41,240 nucleotides of DNA from a virus. This document shows positions 95 through 41,240 of this stretch, one piece after another. Below the pieces are notes generated by a model, which saw only the letters and a program-made list of their open reading frames with translations, did not search any database and was not told the DNA's origin. Location of the stretch: positions 1 to 41,240 of the IMG/VR virus record IMGVR_UViG_3300024264_000073; one strand, given 5' to 3'. The translations under genes were made by a program, and so were the position numbers. Every line of letters begins with the position of its first letter. Position 1 is the first letter of the stretch.

Positions 95-215
95 AGCTCA
101 AAAAATTAAAGTTTATATTTACGTAATTGGGGGGTTATTTAGGGGTAGTCTAATATTCACACTAGATTTTTGGATTTTGAACTTTTATTACACCAACTGC
201 ATAATATATATTTTT
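95..215. other. Leader region upstream of the terminase operon, no gene seen
   Basis: No convincing reading frame is present. The stretch holds two G-runs (GGGGGG at about 129-134 and GGGG at about 142-145) in very AT-rich DNA, and leads into the late promoter at 216-251. Its place just before the terminase genes, together with the G/T-rich tract at 40894-41073 on the other side of the junction, makes it part of the most likely packaging-initiation neighbourhood. That is inference from position only. Confidence 0.4.
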
Positions 216-251
216 GTTCCAAACTATATTATTTATTATTTGTTATATTGT
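216..251 (+). promoter_or_regulatory. Late-class promoter for the terminase operon
   Basis: GTTCC at 216-220, 23 nt, then the -7 box TATATTGT at 244-251. The same box with the same 23-nt spacing occurs at 3121-3156 and 24342-24377. The first gene starts at 276, so this copy, unlike those two, leaves a short leader of about 20 nt. The -7 box resembles the Bacteroidota TAnnTTTG element. The usual TTTG -33 box is absent and GTTCC takes its place, which suggests activator dependence. Confidence 0.7.
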
Positions 252-275
252 GCATAAATAATGTAACTTTACAAT

Positions 276-791
276 ATGAATAAAAGGGATCAGGAAAGGG
301 CTGACAAGAGAAATGCCAAGCTATCGCAAAAAAAAGAAGATGAGAAAATTATTAGCACAGTAGTTTCAAAATATAATCCAAGTGATTTGGACTTAAATAA
401 GAGTTCAGGTAAGGCAACAGGTCTTGTGAGTTATAAAAGAACAACTGAAGTGGTAAAGCTAATATTGAGAGGCATAAGATATACAGATATAATGGAATAT
501 TGTGAAGCTCATTGGGGTATAAAAAGAAGGATGGCTAGTATTTATTATAAAAAGGCATTAGAAAGTTTTGCAGAGCAATTTTCGGAGGAAAGAGAGTATG
601 AGATTGATAAACATCAAATCATGTTACAAGATTTATATAGTAAGTCATATAAGTCTGGAGATTTGAATTTATGTAGATTGTTATTGCAAGATGTTGCAAA
701 GATGAAAGGTATAGTTGTTGATAGAGTTGATTTAACTAGTGGTGGAGATAGTTTTGTCTTTAATTATGAGAGTCCTTCTGACAAAACATAG
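276..791 (+). CDS. terS: Terminase small subunit candidate
   Basis: The 171-residue product has a Lys-rich, charged N-terminus, then a helix-turn-helix-like part around residues 60-105 (EVVKLILRGIRYTDIMEYC, then GIKRRMASIYYKKA), followed by helical segments and a Ser/Asp-rich tail. Small terminase subunits usually combine an N-terminal DNA-binding HTH with a helical oligomerisation region, and this gene lies two genes upstream of an unmistakable large terminase. It would recognise the packaging site and load the motor onto it. The ATG lies 24 nt after the -7 box of the late promoter. The family assignment rests on position and predicted fold, since small terminase sequences are poorly conserved. 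Confidence 0.6.
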   Translation: MNKRDQERADKRNAKLSQKKEDEKIISTVVSKYNPSDLDLNKSSGKATGLVSYKRTTEVVKLILRGIRYTDIMEYCEAHWGIKRRMASIYYKKALESFAEQFSEEREYEIDKHQIMLQDLYSKSYKSGDLNLCRLLLQDVAKMKGIVVDRVDLTSGGDSFVFNYESPSDKT

Positions 792-3120: not shown

Positions 3121-3156
3121 GTTCCATAAAGTTCCAAAGGTTATTTGTTATATTGT
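3121..3156 (+). promoter_or_regulatory. Late-class promoter for the tail operon, leaderless start
   Basis: GTTCC at 3121-3125, 23 nt, then TATATTGT at 3149-3156. A second GTTCC begins at 3131, exactly 10 bp after the first, so two boxes lie one helical turn apart. The ATG of the next gene (3160) begins after only three bases (AAG), so transcription would begin at or next to the start codon. The layout matches the promoter at 24332-24377, including the paired boxes and the 3-nt gap. Confidence 0.75.
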
Positions 3157-3159
3157 AAG

Positions 3160-3564
3160 ATGTCGTACAAAGAAGAAATATATTTTTTAAATAACAGACA
3201 TTCTGTTATAATAAATGATTATTTAACTAAAGTTCAAAATTTAATGGACTCTTCTACTTTTTTTAACGAAGATTATGTTGGATATGAAGTTTTAGTCTTA
3301 AATGTTATAGATTATCACAATGGATTAAGCAAATATGTTTCAGAAGGATTAGTTAATCGTAGAGATTGGTTTGTATCTTTGCCTAACAATTTATATTGGG
3401 CCACAAAGGGTTATTTGGCTAATTTACAATTAAATCAAAATGAAGATATATATTATTGTGAAGAAAAACTATTATCTTTGACTTTAGATGTGTTAGATGA
3501 ATTAAATGAAAGCATATTAATACATCCATTTACAGAAAAAGAATATAAAATTAATTTAAACTAA
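3160..3564 (+). CDS. Hypothetical protein, first gene of the tail operon
   Basis: A 134-residue protein, MSYKEEIYFLNNRHSV onward, mainly helical and acidic, with no motif I recognise. A longer version starting at TTG 3145 would place the start codon inside the promoter -7 box, so ATG 3160 is preferred. The stop overlaps the ATG of the tail chaperone gene (TAATG). Position directly before the chaperone suggests a tail or head-tail joining function, for instance tail completion, but this is unproven. Confidence 0.75.
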   Translation: MSYKEEIYFLNNRHSVIINDYLTKVQNLMDSSTFFNEDYVGYEVLVLNVIDYHNGLSKYVSEGLVNRRDWFVSLPNNLYWATKGYLANLQLNQNEDIYYCEEKLLSLTLDVLDELNESILIHPFTEKEYKINLN

Positions 3565-11602: not shown

Positions 11603-14600
11603 ATGGCAACTACTATATATAATTTTCAAGCAGATTTAACTCAATTATTAAGATTAAATAGCGAATTAGAAAAAGCAAACGCAACTCTTTTAAGATTAAA
11701 AGCAAATACTGCTGGTTATAATGCTACATCTAAAAAGCTAGGGCAAATGCAAACAGCATTAAATAAAAACACTACTGCCTTAAAAAAAACTAACACTCAA
11801 GCTAGGATGCTAAACACACAAGGGAATAGAATGATTGCTATTTTTAAGTCCGCAAGTATTGCCATAGCTTCTGCTTTTGCTTTTAGGGCCATCATAGGTG
11901 GTATTAGAGGGGTTATAACTTCTTTTTCTGATTTTGAATCTCAAATGGCTGCTGTAAAAGCTATTTCAGGTGCGACAGATGAAGAATTTAAAAAATTAAA
12001 AAAATCAGCAGAACAATTAGGTAGAACAACAGTGTTTACAGCAACACAAGTAGCCCAATTACAAGAAGAGTATGCTAGATTAGGTTTTACAGCTGATGAA
12101 ATAGTACAAGCTCAAGCAGGAACAATAGATTTAGCGGCTGCAACAGGAGAGTCATTAAAATCATCTGCTGAAACTGCTGGAGCTGTAATTAGAGCCTTTG
12201 GATTAGATGCTAAAGATACAGGAACTGTGGTTGATGTAATGGGTGCTTCTTTTACAAGTTCTGCTTTAAATTTAGAGAGATTTCAACAATCTATGAAATT
12301 CGTAGCTCCTGTGGCCAAAGCTGCTGGATTTACTTTAGAAGAAACTTCTGCTATGTTGGCACAACTTGCAGACAATGGACTTCATGGTTCTATTGCGGGT
12401 AATGCTTTAAAAAATATAATGTTGAGGTTGGGAGATGCAAATTCTACATTAAATAAAAAGCTTGGTAAAACAGTGCAAGGACTGCCTCAATTTATTGAAG
12501 CACTTAGAGGTATGAAAGAGGAGTCTTTTGGGCTTACAGAGGCTACAGAGCTTTTAGATAAGCGTTCTGCTCCAGCGTTCCTAACATTAATAGGTAATAT
12601 TGAGGGATTAGAAGGAAGCTTAGACACTTTAAATAATGCAGAGGGAGCAGTTACAAGAATGGCGGCTATTAGATTAGATAATTTAGAAGGAGATTTTACA
12701 TTATTAAAGTCAGCAACAGAAGGATTAGGAATTGCTATTGGAGAAATGTTTAATAATAGTTTAAGAGGATCAATAGATAGTTTGACATTATGGATTCAAG
12801 CTTTAACTAATAGTAAAAGTGCAATGTTTACAATAAAACTAGCTTTTAATACTTTAGTTGCTATATTAGGAATGGCTACTCTTCGTTTAGCTGCACTTAA
12901 AGCTATGACTTTATCACAAACTTTAAGTTTTAAAGGAATGGGTAAAGGAGTAAGGCTTCTAGCTGTTTCTATGAGAGGATTGGTTACTGGCACATATTCT
13001 GCTTCTACTGCCATGAAAGGATTAAAAGTAGCTATTGCAAGTACAGGTGTTGGGGTTTTAGCTGTAGCTGTAGGAACTTTAATAGGATATATGATGACTC
13101 TTGGAGATGAAACAAGTGAAGCAGTTATGCAAATGGATAGATTACACCGATCATTTGATAAAGATATAGAAAGTGTAATGGAATTAAATGAAAATGATAA
13201 TGCAAGAGTAAATGTTTTAAGAAAGCTTAAACAAGAATATCCTGAATTAATAGGTTTTATAGATGCAGAAATTGCTAGTAACAAAGATTTAGCTTCTATA
13301 CAAAAATTAGTAAAAGATACTAAAACTGAAAGAGGAGAAATAGCTGCAAAAAGAGAATTAATACGTTTAGCTTTTGACCAAGAAGAAGCAGAAACAAAAA
13401 GTATTAGAAAAAGGATTCTAACTCAAGAAGCTTTTATAGAATCTACAAAACATATGAACGATGAGGAACGTAGACGGAATACTTTTGCGGTAGAAAGCTC
13501 TAAAATAACAATTAAAAATTTAGATAAAGAAATTACACGAAGAGAAAATAAAACTAAAGGGATAGAAAAAGCTTTATTGGAAGAAATAGAACTTTTACAA
13601 AATTTAATTGCTAAAAAACAACAAGCTAATCATGTATTTAGAAAATTAGACACAAGAGAAGAAGAAAAATTTAGAAAAAAACTTAGTGATGGTTATTTAA
13701 AAGATTTAGAAGATTTTAGAGCTATTGGAGAATTATCTAATACTGAAAAAGCAAGAATGTCGCAAGAAGAAATAGATAGATTTATAGATAAAGCTAAGAA
13801 AAAACAACTTGCAGAAATTGATGAAGCACAAGCTGAAAAAGATACCTTAGATGCACAACTTAAATATGCTGAAATAAGAAACAGACTAGATAGCAATAGG
13901 ACTAGTGTAAGAACACAAGCAAGAAGAGATTTAGAGGCATTTAAAGAAACACAAGGTGGTGCAATACCACAACACATTAAAGAGGCAGAAGCATTAAATT
14001 TAGTAGGCATACGAGTACAAGAGCTTAGAATTAAACTACAAAAAATGGACACTGCTTTATTAAAGTCTGGTAAATCAAGTGGTAAATCTGCCATTAGTGT
14101 TCATAGACTTAATTCAACAAAAGACAGGATCAAAGAACTTTTAAAACTACAAACAGACTCTATAGTAGAAGTTAATGAAAGGGAAAAAAAGGAAATTGAA
14201 AATAATTTCCAAGCTAAAATGAATAAGTATGAAAAAGAATTAAAATTAATAGATACTAATTTAAAAAGCATAGAATCATATCAAAATGGAGTTGCTACAA
14301 ATCAAGATAAATTAAACAAAAAATTTATAGAAACTAATAAAAATAAATATGATGTATTAAAAAATCTTGATGCAGCTAGTTGGAAAAAATTAAACTTATC
14401 TTCTGCAGAGGGTATAGCGAGAAGAGAAAGTATGTTAGTTGCAATGCATCAAGAAGAAACGAGAAGATTCAATACAAACACCAGCATACAACTTACATTA
14501 GCAGATGAAAGACAAAGACTTTTAGATATACAAAGTGCTAATAATTTTCAAAGAAATTTAGATGCCACATCTGAATTTGAAGATAGAAAGTTTGAAATGG

Positions 14601-17864: not shown

Positions 17865-19055
17865 TTATATTAAATTTTTAATAACTGATTGAACTACATC
17901 TACTGTTATTGTATTACCTAATTGTTTATACCTTTGGGTATCACTAACTCCATTAGTAAAGTTGTCAGGAAAGCCTTGTAATCTTTCAGATTCTATAGGT
18001 GTTAATTTTCTTATATTAGAAGTGTTTTTATGTCCATACACTAAACTATCACATTCATGCGTTGTAATAGAATTAGCAACATCATCTGATCTTAGTTCTA
18101 ATCTTTTACTTCTACCATTTTCTCTATCTTTGTCAGGATTACTAGTTCTTGGAAATGTCCTCAAAGCTCCACTTTTTACCTCTATAGCTTGTGAATTAGC
18201 TGTGTCTAAACAATATGATGTTCCATCTTCTTTTTGTAGCCTACCCGAGCCTCCCTTACCTGTTTTACTTGTTCTTGGGTGTAAACTATGCACAAGCACT
18301 CTTTCATCTTTAAAACAAGGAGTATCTCCTCCTACTTTTAAAGTTTTACAAACCCCTTCTGTACTCATGGGTTGTCTTTCTCTAAAATTACTTTTATTAA
18401 TACCATCTACCATTCTTTGACTTAAAAAATATTTTTCATCTACATTATCCTCTAAAATGTCTTTTAATTTTAGTTTTAATGGCATATTTTTAGGAAATCT
18501 AAAATCATTATCTTCATCATCTCTTATGCCTACAATAAATATTCTTTCTCTATTTTGTGGCACTCCAAAATCTCTTGTATTCATTACTTGATAATGTATA
18601 TGATAACCTAAATTATCAAATTGCATTAAAGAAAACTGATTATTTTCTGTCTTTGCTAAACAATCTACAATGGTTCTAAAAGTTTTACCATTATCATGAC
18701 TTAGTAAACCCTTTACATTTTCTCCTATAAAATATCTAGGTTTATGTTCAATTAAATATCTTAAGGCATCATAAAACAAAGTACCTCTTGTATCATCAAA
18801 ACCTCCTCTTCTACCTGCCAAACTAAAGGCTTGACAAGGGAATCCAAAAACTAATAAATCTACAGGATCTAAATCTTTCATGTCTAATTTAGTTATATCC
18901 TCATACATATTTTTAGGATTAAAATTCTTTAAATATGTTTCTCTTGCATACTTATCTATTTCACAAGCAAAAGTTACTTCATGCTCAACATCTAAATTTA
19001 TTAATGCTTGTTCTGGACTCCCTATGCCACTAAAAAATGTTCCTATTTTAATCAT
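17865..19055 (-). CDS. C5-cytosine DNA methyltransferase
   Basis: A complete 396-residue m5C methyltransferase, using S-adenosylmethionine to methylate cytosine in duplex DNA. The motifs are in order: I GTFFSGIGSPEQAL (5-18), IV GFPCQAFSLAGRRGG with catalytic Cys74, VI GENVKGL (Glu112), VIII QNRERIFIVG (167-176), a variable target-recognition region (about 215-340), IX ERLQGFPDNFT and X QLGNTITVDVV near the C-terminus. No restriction enzyme gene lies beside it, so it probably protects phage DNA from host nucleases. Its ATG overlaps the stop of the small membrane protein gene upstream. Confidence 0.95.
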   Translation of the reverse strand: MIKIGTFFSGIGSPEQALINLDVEHEVTFACEIDKYARETYLKNFNPKNMYEDITKLDMKDLDPVDLLVFGFPCQAFSLAGRRGGFDDTRGTLFYDALRYLIEHKPRYFIGENVKGLLSHDNGKTFRTIVDCLAKTENNQFSLMQFDNLGYHIHYQVMNTRDFGVPQNRERIFIVGIRDDEDNDFRFPKNMPLKLKLKDILEDNVDEKYFLSQRMVDGINKSNFRERQPMSTEGVCKTLKVGGDTPCFKDERVLVHSLHPRTSKTGKGGSGRLQKEDGTSYCLDTANSQAIEVKSGALRTFPRTSNPDKDRENGRSKRLELRSDDVANSITTHECDSLVYGHKNTSNIRKLTPIESERLQGFPDNFTNGVSDTQRYKQLGNTITVDVVQSVIKNLI

Positions 19056-19230
19056 CAGTATATTTATTTTTCCAATTATTTAATAACTCATGGTATCTTG
19101 TTCTAAAATAATCTAACTCTTCTTCTAGCATTTTTATTTCATTATGCGTTTGATAAACTATAAAAACTGTTCCCAATGCAAATCCTAAAGAAATACATAC
19201 TGTTATTAATATAAAAGGTTCGAAAGTCAT
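19048..19230 (-). CDS. Small membrane protein, leaderless early gene
   Basis: A 60-residue protein, MTFEPFILITVCISLGFALG onward, with one membrane helix at about residues 5-27 and a charged coiled-coil tail (HNEIKMLEEELDYFRTRYHEL). ATG 19230 lies exactly 3 nt after the TACATTGT -7 box; a longer TTG start would fall inside that box. First gene of the transcript that carries the methyltransferase and resolvase. Membrane anchor or host-interaction roles are possible; no family is recognised. Confidence 0.7.
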   Translation of the reverse strand: MTFEPFILITVCISLGFALGTVFIVYQTHNEIKMLEEELDYFRTRYHELLNNWKNKYTDD

Positions 19231-19233
19231 ATT

Positions 19234-19266
19234 ACAATGTAACAACTAATTTATTTAATATCCAAA
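19234..19266 (-). promoter_or_regulatory. Early-class promoter (leftward, methyltransferase operon)
   Basis: Read on the minus strand: TTTG (19266-19263), 21 nt, then TACATTGT (19241-19234). The upstream part TATAATTTGGATATTAAAT is identical in the promoter at 24281-24313, and ATAATTTGGAT also recurs at 36772. The spacing and boxes match the Bacteroidota sigma-ABfr pattern (TTTG ... TAnnTTTG). It lies in the 36-bp gap between the primase-helicase gene and the small membrane protein gene. Confidence 0.8.
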
Positions 19267-20961: not shown

Positions 20962-21569
20962 TAAAATACAAAATTATCAAAGCCTCCTCCTGTAAAGCCT
21001 TGTTGATTATTATTATCAATATCATCATCCCAACAACCTTGATTTAACCAAGTTCCAGGATGTTTTTTAAACTTAATATCAGTTATAGAATCTGAATATA
21101 GCTTTGCTGAAACAACACATTTCTTACATATCTTTAAACTTAAATTCATAAATTTATCATAACATAACTTTCTACTTTTCTTAAAATTATAATTGTTCCA
21201 AAATTCTTCAAAAAGTATAATCTTTTCTTTATTAGTATTATTATTAACATTTTTGTTAAGGGGGGGTACACTTTTTTGTGAAGGGGTATGTACTAGAGTT
21301 ATTATTCTAGTTTCTACATTATTATCCCTTGTTCTTATCATTTTTATTTTAATAAATCCATATAATGCTAGTTTAGATAAATTCCTGCTTATACTATTAG
21401 GATTTCTTTTAAATAATTTGCCAAAATATTTATTTGTAGCCCAACAATAACCTTTAAAATTTGATAGACAAGTTATTTCAGCATATAATAATTTTTCCAT
21501 AGGATTTATGGCATCACTATATCTTACATCTGCTGGTAATGTAGCGTAATAATTAGGGTTTTCTTTCAT
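20961..21569 (-). CDS. Winged-helix replication protein / helicase loader candidate
   Basis: A 202-residue protein. Residues 20-85 look like the replisome-organiser winged helix (NPMEKLLYAEITCLSNFKGY, then NKYFGKLFKRNPNSISRNLS, LALYGFIKIKM). After a polar linker, a second domain begins LFEEFWNNYNFKKSRKLCYD and contains HPGTWLNQGCWDDD, a motif common at the end of phage DnaD/DnaT- or P-like loaders. It would bind origin DNA and recruit the primase-helicase encoded directly downstream, with which it overlaps. Family inferred from motif memory. Confidence 0.75.
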   Translation of the reverse strand: MKENPNYYATLPADVRYSDAINPMEKLLYAEITCLSNFKGYCWATNKYFGKLFKRNPNSISRNLSKLALYGFIKIKMIRTRDNNVETRIITLVHTPSQKSVPPLNKNVNNNTNKEKIILFEEFWNNYNFKKSRKLCYDKFMNLSLKICKKCVVSAKLYSDSITDIKFKKHPGTWLNQGCWDDDIDNNNQQGFTGGGFDNFVF

Positions 21570-21970: not shown

Positions 21971-22387
21971 TTAGTTATTATTTAATTTAATTTGTCCTGC
22001 TTTTATCATTCTTCTTTTTATTTTTCTAATAGAAGATTGTAATTCGTTAATTTGTTGTTGCATAAGAGTTACTTCAGCTCCTCTATAACCTGTTTCATGT
22101 TCTTCTTGAACTTTTAAATACATTTCTTTATAATCAGGATATGACAAAATATTAAACTTATGATCCTTTGAGTATTTTAAAATAGAAGCATGATGTCTAT
22201 TAATAATTTCTCCAACTCTTTTAGCTGTAACACCACCCTCTCTTAACATAATACTTAATATGCTTCTTGGCAAGGTTACTTCAGAACCCCTATAAGGGCT
22301 TCTTATCTTGTTTATATTTGTTTTAGATACTTGTTCTACTATTTGTATAATAGCCTCTTCGTTAGGCTTCAAAGACATTTCTTTCAT
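21971..22387 (-). CDS. Protein with DnaA domain IV-like DNA-binding region
   Basis: A 138-residue protein. Residues about 30-75 (RGSEVTLPRSILSIMLREGG, then VTAKRVGEIINRHHASILKY) follow the pattern of DnaA domain IV: basic loop, LPR start, then a helix-turn-helix ending in an H-x-S-I/V box. The C-terminal 50 residues are a basic coiled coil. There is no AAA+ domain, so it could bind DnaA-box DNA without the ATPase. ATG 22387 is preferred to an adjacent GTG. It overlaps the upstream gene by 26 bases. See the DnaA boxes at 39111-39131. Confidence 0.7.
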   Translation of the reverse strand: MKEMSLKPNEEAIIQIVEQVSKTNINKIRSPYRGSEVTLPRSILSIMLREGGVTAKRVGEIINRHHASILKYSKDHKFNILSYPDYKEMYLKVQEEHETGYRGAEVTLMQQQINELQSSIRKIKRRMIKAGQIKLNNN

Positions 22388-24280: not shown

Positions 24281-24313
24281 ACAATGTAACGAACAATAAA
24301 TTTAATATCCAAA
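24281..24313 (-). promoter_or_regulatory. Early-class promoter (leftward, replication operon)
   Basis: Minus strand: TTTG (24313-24310), 21 nt, TACATTGT (24288-24281). It shares TATAATTTGGATATTAAAT and GTTACATTGTAATA with the promoter at 19234-19266. The late rightward promoter lies back-to-back at 24332-24377, so one 126-bp gap controls both the early and the late halves of the genome. Confidence 0.8.
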
Positions 24314-24331
24314 TTATAATTAATAAACTTT

Positions 24332-24377
24332 ATTCCACAAAGTTCCAAACTGTACAAAAACTTAATTGTTATATTGT
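24332..24377 (+). promoter_or_regulatory. Late-class promoter for the head operon, leaderless start
   Basis: ATTCC at 24332 and GTTCC at 24342 are 10 bp apart. The second is 23 nt from TATATTGT at 24370-24377, and ATG 24381 follows after three bases (TGT). The sequence CTTTATTCCACAAAGTTCC is nearly the same as that at 3115. The two-box arrangement suggests a dimeric activator bound on one face of the helix. Confidence 0.75.
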
Positions 24378-36470: not shown

Positions 36471-36523
36471 AATTATACGCAAAACCTGCCTTTTATGTAA
36501 AAATTTTTTTGTTATATTGTAAT

Positions 36524-36598
36524 GTTTTGTTTCATGGTGTAAAAACCGTAATTGAGTTTAGTAAAGAAAGGGGGGTATTTTACCCCTCTTTTTTATTT
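36524..36598 (+). ncRNA. Candidate small RNA (about 70 nt) between promoter and terminator
   Basis: TATATTGT at 36513-36520 is identical to the late -7 boxes (GTTATATTGT), and a G-rich terminator ends at about 36594. The roughly 70-nt interval encodes no protein (only a 6-codon frame). The GTTCC box is missing, though TGCC lies at a similar distance upstream. Either a small RNA is made, or the box is fortuitous and the terminator just ends the late transcript. Confidence 0.45.
36569..36594 (+). terminator. Rho-independent terminator of the head/lysis operon
   Basis: GGGGTA and TACCCC pair around a three-T loop, with extra G/C and G-T pairs below, then TTTTTT. It follows the metallophosphoesterase gene by 99 bases and would end late transcripts from 24381 onward. 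Confidence 0.85.
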
Positions 36599-36602
36599 CA
36601 AA

Positions 36603-41173: not shown

Positions 41174-41240
41174 ATGACACAAAAAGAAACCAAAAAAAGG
41201 GCAAGTTCTGGAGGATCAAGAAAAAAAAATGTAAAAAAAA
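41174..41240 (+). CDS. N-terminal part of the junction-spanning basic protein
   Basis: ATG 41174 encodes MTQKETKKRASSGGSRKKNV and stays open to the end of the window. Through the 59-bp repeat it continues in bases 62-94 (see the entry at 1). Lys/Arg/Ser/Gly composition suggests nucleic-acid contact. That a frame stays open through the join is weak support for both the gene and the circular map. Confidence 0.45.
   Translation, partial: MTQKETKKRASSGGSRKKNVKK
41181..41239. repeat. Terminal direct repeat, right copy (59 bp)
   Basis: Identical to bases 3-61. See the left copy. Overlaps the 5' part of the junction-spanning gene. Confidence 0.9.

Follow-up and report, generated by a model that had tools for sequence, protein, structure and literature searches.

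Three genes of this phage, with start codons at 3160, 24381 and, on the minus strand, 19230, are with high probability expressed from leaderless mRNAs, each transcribed by the host RNA polymerase from an SM5-type promoter that would place the ATG at or near +1. At all three, a TAYATTGT box ends exactly 3 nt 5′ of the ATG. The window, by which we mean the whole 41,240-bp stretch analysed (virus record IMGVR_UViG_3300024264_000073, 30.5% GC), contains the strict pattern TTAYATTGYNNNATG three times where 0.07 copies would be expected, a count matched by none of 100 dinucleotide shuffles. The first-pass annotation had proposed four sites with this gap, with an mRNA start at or near each AUG, and for three of them the proposal is supported by our sequence tests and by published spacings of transcription start sites (TSSs). 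The fourth, TATGTTGC at 41174, was rejected because the box is not conserved in the nearest sister contig, which reads TATGGTGC, and the ORF comprises just 32 codons.

Table 1. Promoter elements, junctions and first genes in the window
Feature	Position	Strand	Remarks
TATATTGT-AAG-ATG	box 3149-3156, ATG 3160	+	tail-operon late promoter; SM5-like TAnnTTGY -7 element
TATATTGT-TGT-ATG	box 24370-24377, ATG 24381	+	head-operon late promoter
TACATTGT-AAT-ATG	box 19241-19234, ATG 19230	-	second early promoter
TTCCA-N5-TTCCA direct repeat	3122-3126 and 3132-3136	+	ends 12 nt 5′ of the 3149 box
TTCCA-N5-TTCCA direct repeat	24333-24347	+	ends 22 nt 5′ of the 24370 box
Single TTCCA	217-221	+	22 nt 5′ of the 244 box
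TATATTGT box, terminase-region late promoter	244-251	+	leadered control; ATG 276, gap 24
TACATTGT box, first early promoter	24281-24288	-	leadered control; ATG 24254, gap 26
TTTG, -33-type element	19263-19266	-	21 nt 5′ of the box, inside TAATTTGG
ClpP-like head maturation protease, 330 aa	24381-25373	+	phrog_133, E 2e-71; PF00574; predicted leaderless
First gene of tail operon, 134 aa	3160-3564	+	no assigned function; predicted leaderless from ATG 3160
60-aa protein with N-terminal hydrophobic stretch	19048-19230	-	leads into C5 methyltransferase gene; predicted leaderless

By comparison of their sequences, spacing of the 3-nt type is kept in dozens of related viruses. The protease orthologs that carry their own TTATATTG[TC] promoter have gaps of 3 (9) or 4 (6) nt in 15 of 15 non-redundant cases, with variable spacer letters, and the 14 non-redundant orthologs of the 3160 gene all have gaps of 3 (12) or 4 (2). 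For orthologs of the 19230 gene the gap is 2 or 3; some phages have the 19230-type promoter immediately before the methyltransferase, at a gap of 2. In the window and 15 related records, the distances from distinct TTAYATTGY boxes to a following ORF start are bimodal, with 16 at 2–4 nt, 20 at 21–30 nt and three within 5–20 nt.

The same preference appears at 429 non-redundant ORF starts, where TAHHTTGY peaks at offset 3 (9 sites, with 3 at offset 2 and 2 at offset 4) and the canonical box TAHHTTTG at offset 4 (7 sites, with 2 at offset 3), such that the conserved G mostly lies 4 nt before the A of the ATG. The binomial p values (4e-9 for TAHHTTGY and 6e-7 for TAHHTTTG) treat orthologs as independent events, which they are not, and so overstate the evidence. 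The canonical-box sites with short gaps belong to other genes, among them the small gene upstream of the terminase and members of two small-protein families. At gaps 3–4, rearranged controls that share no overlap with the motif yielded next to nothing; the pattern [TC]GTTA[TC]ATT, which overlaps the motif itself, was left out of this set. Short-gap boxes were not found in Pelagibacter phage HTVC010P, an AT-rich non-Bacteroidota control, nor in Tenacibaculum JQ, Flavobacterium lillamy, or Cellulophaga phi46:1 and phi39:1, so the feature is not universal among flavophages. Chance could account for the junctions if TAnnTTG fell near ATG often enough in an AT-rich genome, and the loosest pattern, TANNTTGNNNNATG (TANNTTG-N4-ATG), is indeed not above expectation in the window (6 found, 3.5 expected), the fourth site being spurious as well. 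Against this stand the shuffles of the strict motif, the near-empty controls and the persistence of the gap across diverged upstream regions, several gene families and both box types, which together render the probability of a chance origin practically negligible.

The box resembles a characterized promoter element. In Flavobacterium psychrophilum, the SM5 motif is TAnnTTGY, occupies positions -12 to -5, and has been confirmed by mutagenesis at one promoter (PMC9723704). Both TATATTGT and TACATTGT, as well as TATATTGC, fit TAnnTTGY, with Y being T or C across orthologs, and the two systems are inferred to share a host phylum. In Flavobacterium johnsoniae, 4–5 nt separate the -7 box from the TSS (PMC6847099), and in the phage the distance from the box's G to the A of the ATG is likewise 4 or 5 nt. 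Applied to the phage, the F. johnsoniae spacing would make the A +1 whether the gap is 3 or 4; under the literal SM5 spacing, +1 would be the A where the gap is 4 and the U of the AUG where it is 3, and gap-2 sites would need a start even nearer the box. In the leadered promoters the box is followed by A-n-T-A; of 23, 13 have A at nt 4 and 17 have A at nt 6, which fits a start at nt 4–6. From these spacings and A positions, the register is uncertain by 1–2 nt, and a leader of more than ∼2 nt is hard to fit.

A genuine promoter that starts at a purine 1–4 nt before the ATG would instead leave the mRNA with an ultra-short leader, as in AAG-AUG at 3160. At most short-gap sites a T precedes the ATG, in keeping with a pyrimidine-purine initiator, and in most protease orthologs this T makes the A of the ATG the first purine in range; the 3160 family is different, with mostly purines before the ATG (AAG, AAA, AGG, AGA), and its mRNAs could carry 1–2 extra nt. 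RNA polymerase is also known to shift its choice of start by 1–2 nt. However, a start within the spacer would fall 1–3 nt past the box, short of the published 4–5 nt after the G or the still longer SM5 distance, and we regard the ultra-short leader as unlikely. Because the box matches SM5 and +1 would fall on, or within ∼1 nt of, the A, the product of host RNA polymerase at these sites is most likely a leaderless mRNA.

Two promoter classes were proposed at first pass, and both are present: a late class on the plus strand with TTCCA repeats, and an early class on the minus strand with TAATTTGGATATTAAAT. In the early promoters (19241 and 24288), the TTTG of TAATTTGGATATTAAAT lies 21 nt 5′ of TACATTGT. 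The TAATTTGG block at the 19230 junction shares bases with the stop codon of the primase-helicase gene that lies upstream, and the same block is found at the 24288 promoter. The 3-nt gap had also been read as a trait of both classes, and this part did not hold: each class includes a leadered copy, so the gap is a property of gene junctions rather than of promoter classes. These leadered copies are built-in internal controls.

The TTCCA repeats, spaced 10 bp (one helical turn) apart, are a family-wide late-promoter signature, found in the window and in contigs L214–L302. They are probably a binding site for an activator of the phage. A search of the early proteins against Pfam and PHROG gave no clear candidate for a sigma factor or late activator; the only matches were a replication protein with an HTH_36 domain (20964-21569) and, below the cut-off, a DnaA-C helix-turn-helix at 21974-22387. 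An IMG/VR scan for TTCCA repeats plus TATATTG, blind to ORFs, recovered late promoters in which the spacer is 12 or 22 nt. Among 26 non-redundant late promoters with either spacer, 19 have an ATG at gap 3 or 4; the others have gaps of 13–14 nt (5) or 24 nt (1), or no ORF (1). TTCCA at spacers of 25–35 gave five matches, none followed by an ORF start, and represents background only.

An alternative is that the real promoter lies further upstream, with the TAYATTGY box forming part of an ordinary leader or a regulator site in a leadered mRNA. In favour of this, the protease has a 126-bp divergent region with room for other promoters; across its class this region spans 108–158 bp and is shared with a leadered early promoter. 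The other junctions are tighter, with only 36 bp between the upstream gene and the ATG at 19230 and 53 bp at 3160 (35–37 bp and 52–64 bp across the respective classes). In addition, the box sits at a fixed 12 or 22 nt from the TTCCA repeats, it matches a mapped and mutated Flavobacterium promoter element, and the stretch from box to ATG lacks the A-rich leader present at sites with gaps of 21–30 nt. A distant promoter is thus very improbable. The short intergenic gaps are just enough room for a promoter without a leader; genome economy would be the simplest driver of the leaderless junctions, and a selective role, through initiation by initiator tRNA and IF2 rather than by leader features, is possible.

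The gene labels given at first pass were borne out, with 24381 opening the ClpP-like head maturation protease and 3160 leading a series of genes in which the tape measure protein lies at 11603. The 19230 product, called a small membrane protein, had no family match in PHROG or Pfam. ATG stands at all short-gap sites by construction of the search, and the start codons were assessed separately from homology. Residues M1, N2, W3 and Y4 of the protease are invariant in 11 diverse orthologs, and this start is kept in clades in which the protease lies inside an operon or follows a different upstream region with no adjacent box. The ATG is therefore the real start. Orthologs of the 3160 gene likewise begin at the same ATG, with homology starting at M1, and no in-frame start further upstream is conserved. 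RNA folding predictions for the initial 60 nt gave nothing notable.

If the ATG were not the start, translation would begin within the ORF or at the TTG that precedes the box. Mechanical ORF calls do open at TTG codons, as the earlier reading had stated; these codons (3145, 24366 and 19245) lie just upstream of the box, in TTG-T-TAYATTGT, and not inside it as then described. The in-frame TTG is missing from many orthologs and is thrown out of frame where the gap is 2 or 4, which, together with homology that begins exactly at M1, makes a non-ATG start extremely unlikely. The gene starts are corrected accordingly from those TTG codons to the ATG.

One clade has a gene of ∼494–498 aa (MAETYNDY/MAKTYxDY), in place of the protease, under the head-operon late promoter. 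The gap at this gene is 3 nt in L214 (10628, minus strand) and 13–14 nt in its siblings (L034, L039, L047, L215 and L267). This pattern indicates that leaderless and short-leader states interchange, and that very short leaders are tolerated.

We propose the following mechanism for the leaderless junctions. Host RNA polymerase would recognize a TAnnTTGY -7 element of the SM5 kind, and the A of the ATG would be +1, or within 1–2 nt of it, at the head-protease, tail-operon and 19230 genes. The mRNA would thus open at or very close to its AUG, and translation would follow the leaderless route, with the 5′-terminal AUG bound by a ribosome that already has initiator tRNA. Late promoters additionally carry TTCCA direct repeats at a constant helical phase, probably for a phage activator, early promoters retain a TTTG -33-type element, and other copies of the same promoters would drive leaders of ∼17–26 nt.

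The host is very likely a marine bacterium of the Bacteroidota and probably a flavobacterium. The closest kin of the terminase are in Flavobacterium phage 11b (51%) and Cellulophaga phi10:1 (46%). Shine-Dalgarno-like sequences precede 6.2% of gene starts, no excess over the 6.0% in shuffles, and the starts are A-rich, with A at -3 in 66%. Gene starts of F. johnsoniae are reported to have the same pattern, with no Shine-Dalgarno excess and A at -3 (PMC6847099). It is the combination of Bacteroidota-phage kin with A-rich starts that lack Shine-Dalgarno sequences that points to this host. A GTDB search with the protease alignment gave only distant matches in Sulfurimonas and Sphingomonas metagenome-assembled genomes, and the host genome was not found among them. 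The two ends of the record (1-58 and 41183-41240) overlap by ∼58 bp as judged by eye, homopolymer slips aside, and the genome is therefore probably complete and circularly permuted or terminally redundant. The record was probably opened within a short ORF that spans both ends.

Two further regions are conserved in relatives. Upstream of the first packaging-region gene (ATG 276), the DNA at 150-290 (plus strand) is ∼85–99% conserved over ∼138 nt, and this stretch is possibly a packaging site or a regulator region besides a promoter. Before the ATG of 276-gene orthologs stand two boxes: the late box at 24 nt and a canonical one, TAACTTTG or TAAATTTG, at 4 nt (L169 548, L175 18596, L178 18531 on the minus strand, and L181 587). 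The window's copy of the canonical box (252-275) has decayed to TAACTTTA. At 36508-36600 (plus strand), a conserved intergenic TTGTTATATTGT promoter is followed by a short predicted transcript that ends in a G+C-rich hairpin and a T run. The hairpin is predicted at -24 to -28 kcal/mol in all six phages folded (L170, L173, L175, L182, L231 and the window). As this region has no conserved ORF, it is a candidate phage small RNA of ∼75–85 nt, for which no Rfam match was found.

Leaderless mRNA is already a known kind of message. The mRNA of the lambda cI gene opens at its AUG and is translated without a leader; cI, however, is a repressor gene in a host that uses Shine-Dalgarno pairing, whereas the junctions described here belong to structural operons, in hosts whose lineage makes little use of it. 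Within the Bacteroidota, leaderless mRNAs make up 5.5% of those mapped in F. psychrophilum (PMC9723704), about 13% of F. johnsoniae mRNAs have leaders of 10 nt or less (PMC6847099), and 3.7% of those in B. thetaiotaomicron have leaders below 10 nt (PMC7366714). Most messages of such hosts are leadered. The phage mRNAs would share with these leaderless messages a start codon at or near the 5′ end and the lack of a Shine-Dalgarno sequence. They differ in that the host examples, established by RNA-seq, are a scattered minority of genes, whereas in the phage family the arrangement is conserved at head and tail operons and is a prediction from sequence. The text available for F. psychrophilum does not tie its leaderless mRNAs to SM5 and does not name the sigma factor for SM5 (PMC9723704). 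Unlike SM5 promoters, those of the phage also bear a TTTG block or phased TTCCA repeats, and they would set the ATG at the start point.

Among cultured flavophages, Polaribacter P12002L, Cellulophaga phi10:1 and Flavobacterium 11b have a few genes with a TAHHTTTG box 4–5 nt before the ATG, which is the annotated start in three of them (P12002L 5260, which opens the terminase, and 13709, and phi10:1 40973, which opens gp089). These differ from the junctions in the window in having a canonical sigma-A box rather than TAnnTTGY, and in the genes concerned. In the open-access literature searched, we found no paper mapping flavophage transcription starts, no conserved leaderless use for phage head or tail operons and no dedicated leaderless-translation system in Bacteroidota. 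As far as these searches go, the conserved use at head and tail operons is new, as is the phased TTCCA late-promoter signature.

We suggest, tentatively and as a reading slightly more doubtful than probable, that this marine flavophage lineage has come to base the expression of its head and tail operons on leaderless translation, the AUG being set at the +1 of SM5-type promoters, which an activator of the phage would open by way of the helically phased TTCCA repeats. Leaderless translation in Bacteroidota is little studied, and the junctions described here are strong candidates that come with leadered controls. The two-class promoter code, TTCCA-phased for late and TTTG for early genes, suggests a means by which early and late genes could be sorted in uncultured marine flavophages. 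If the proposal is true, virion synthesis in these phages would rely on leaderless initiation in a host that barely uses Shine-Dalgarno pairing.
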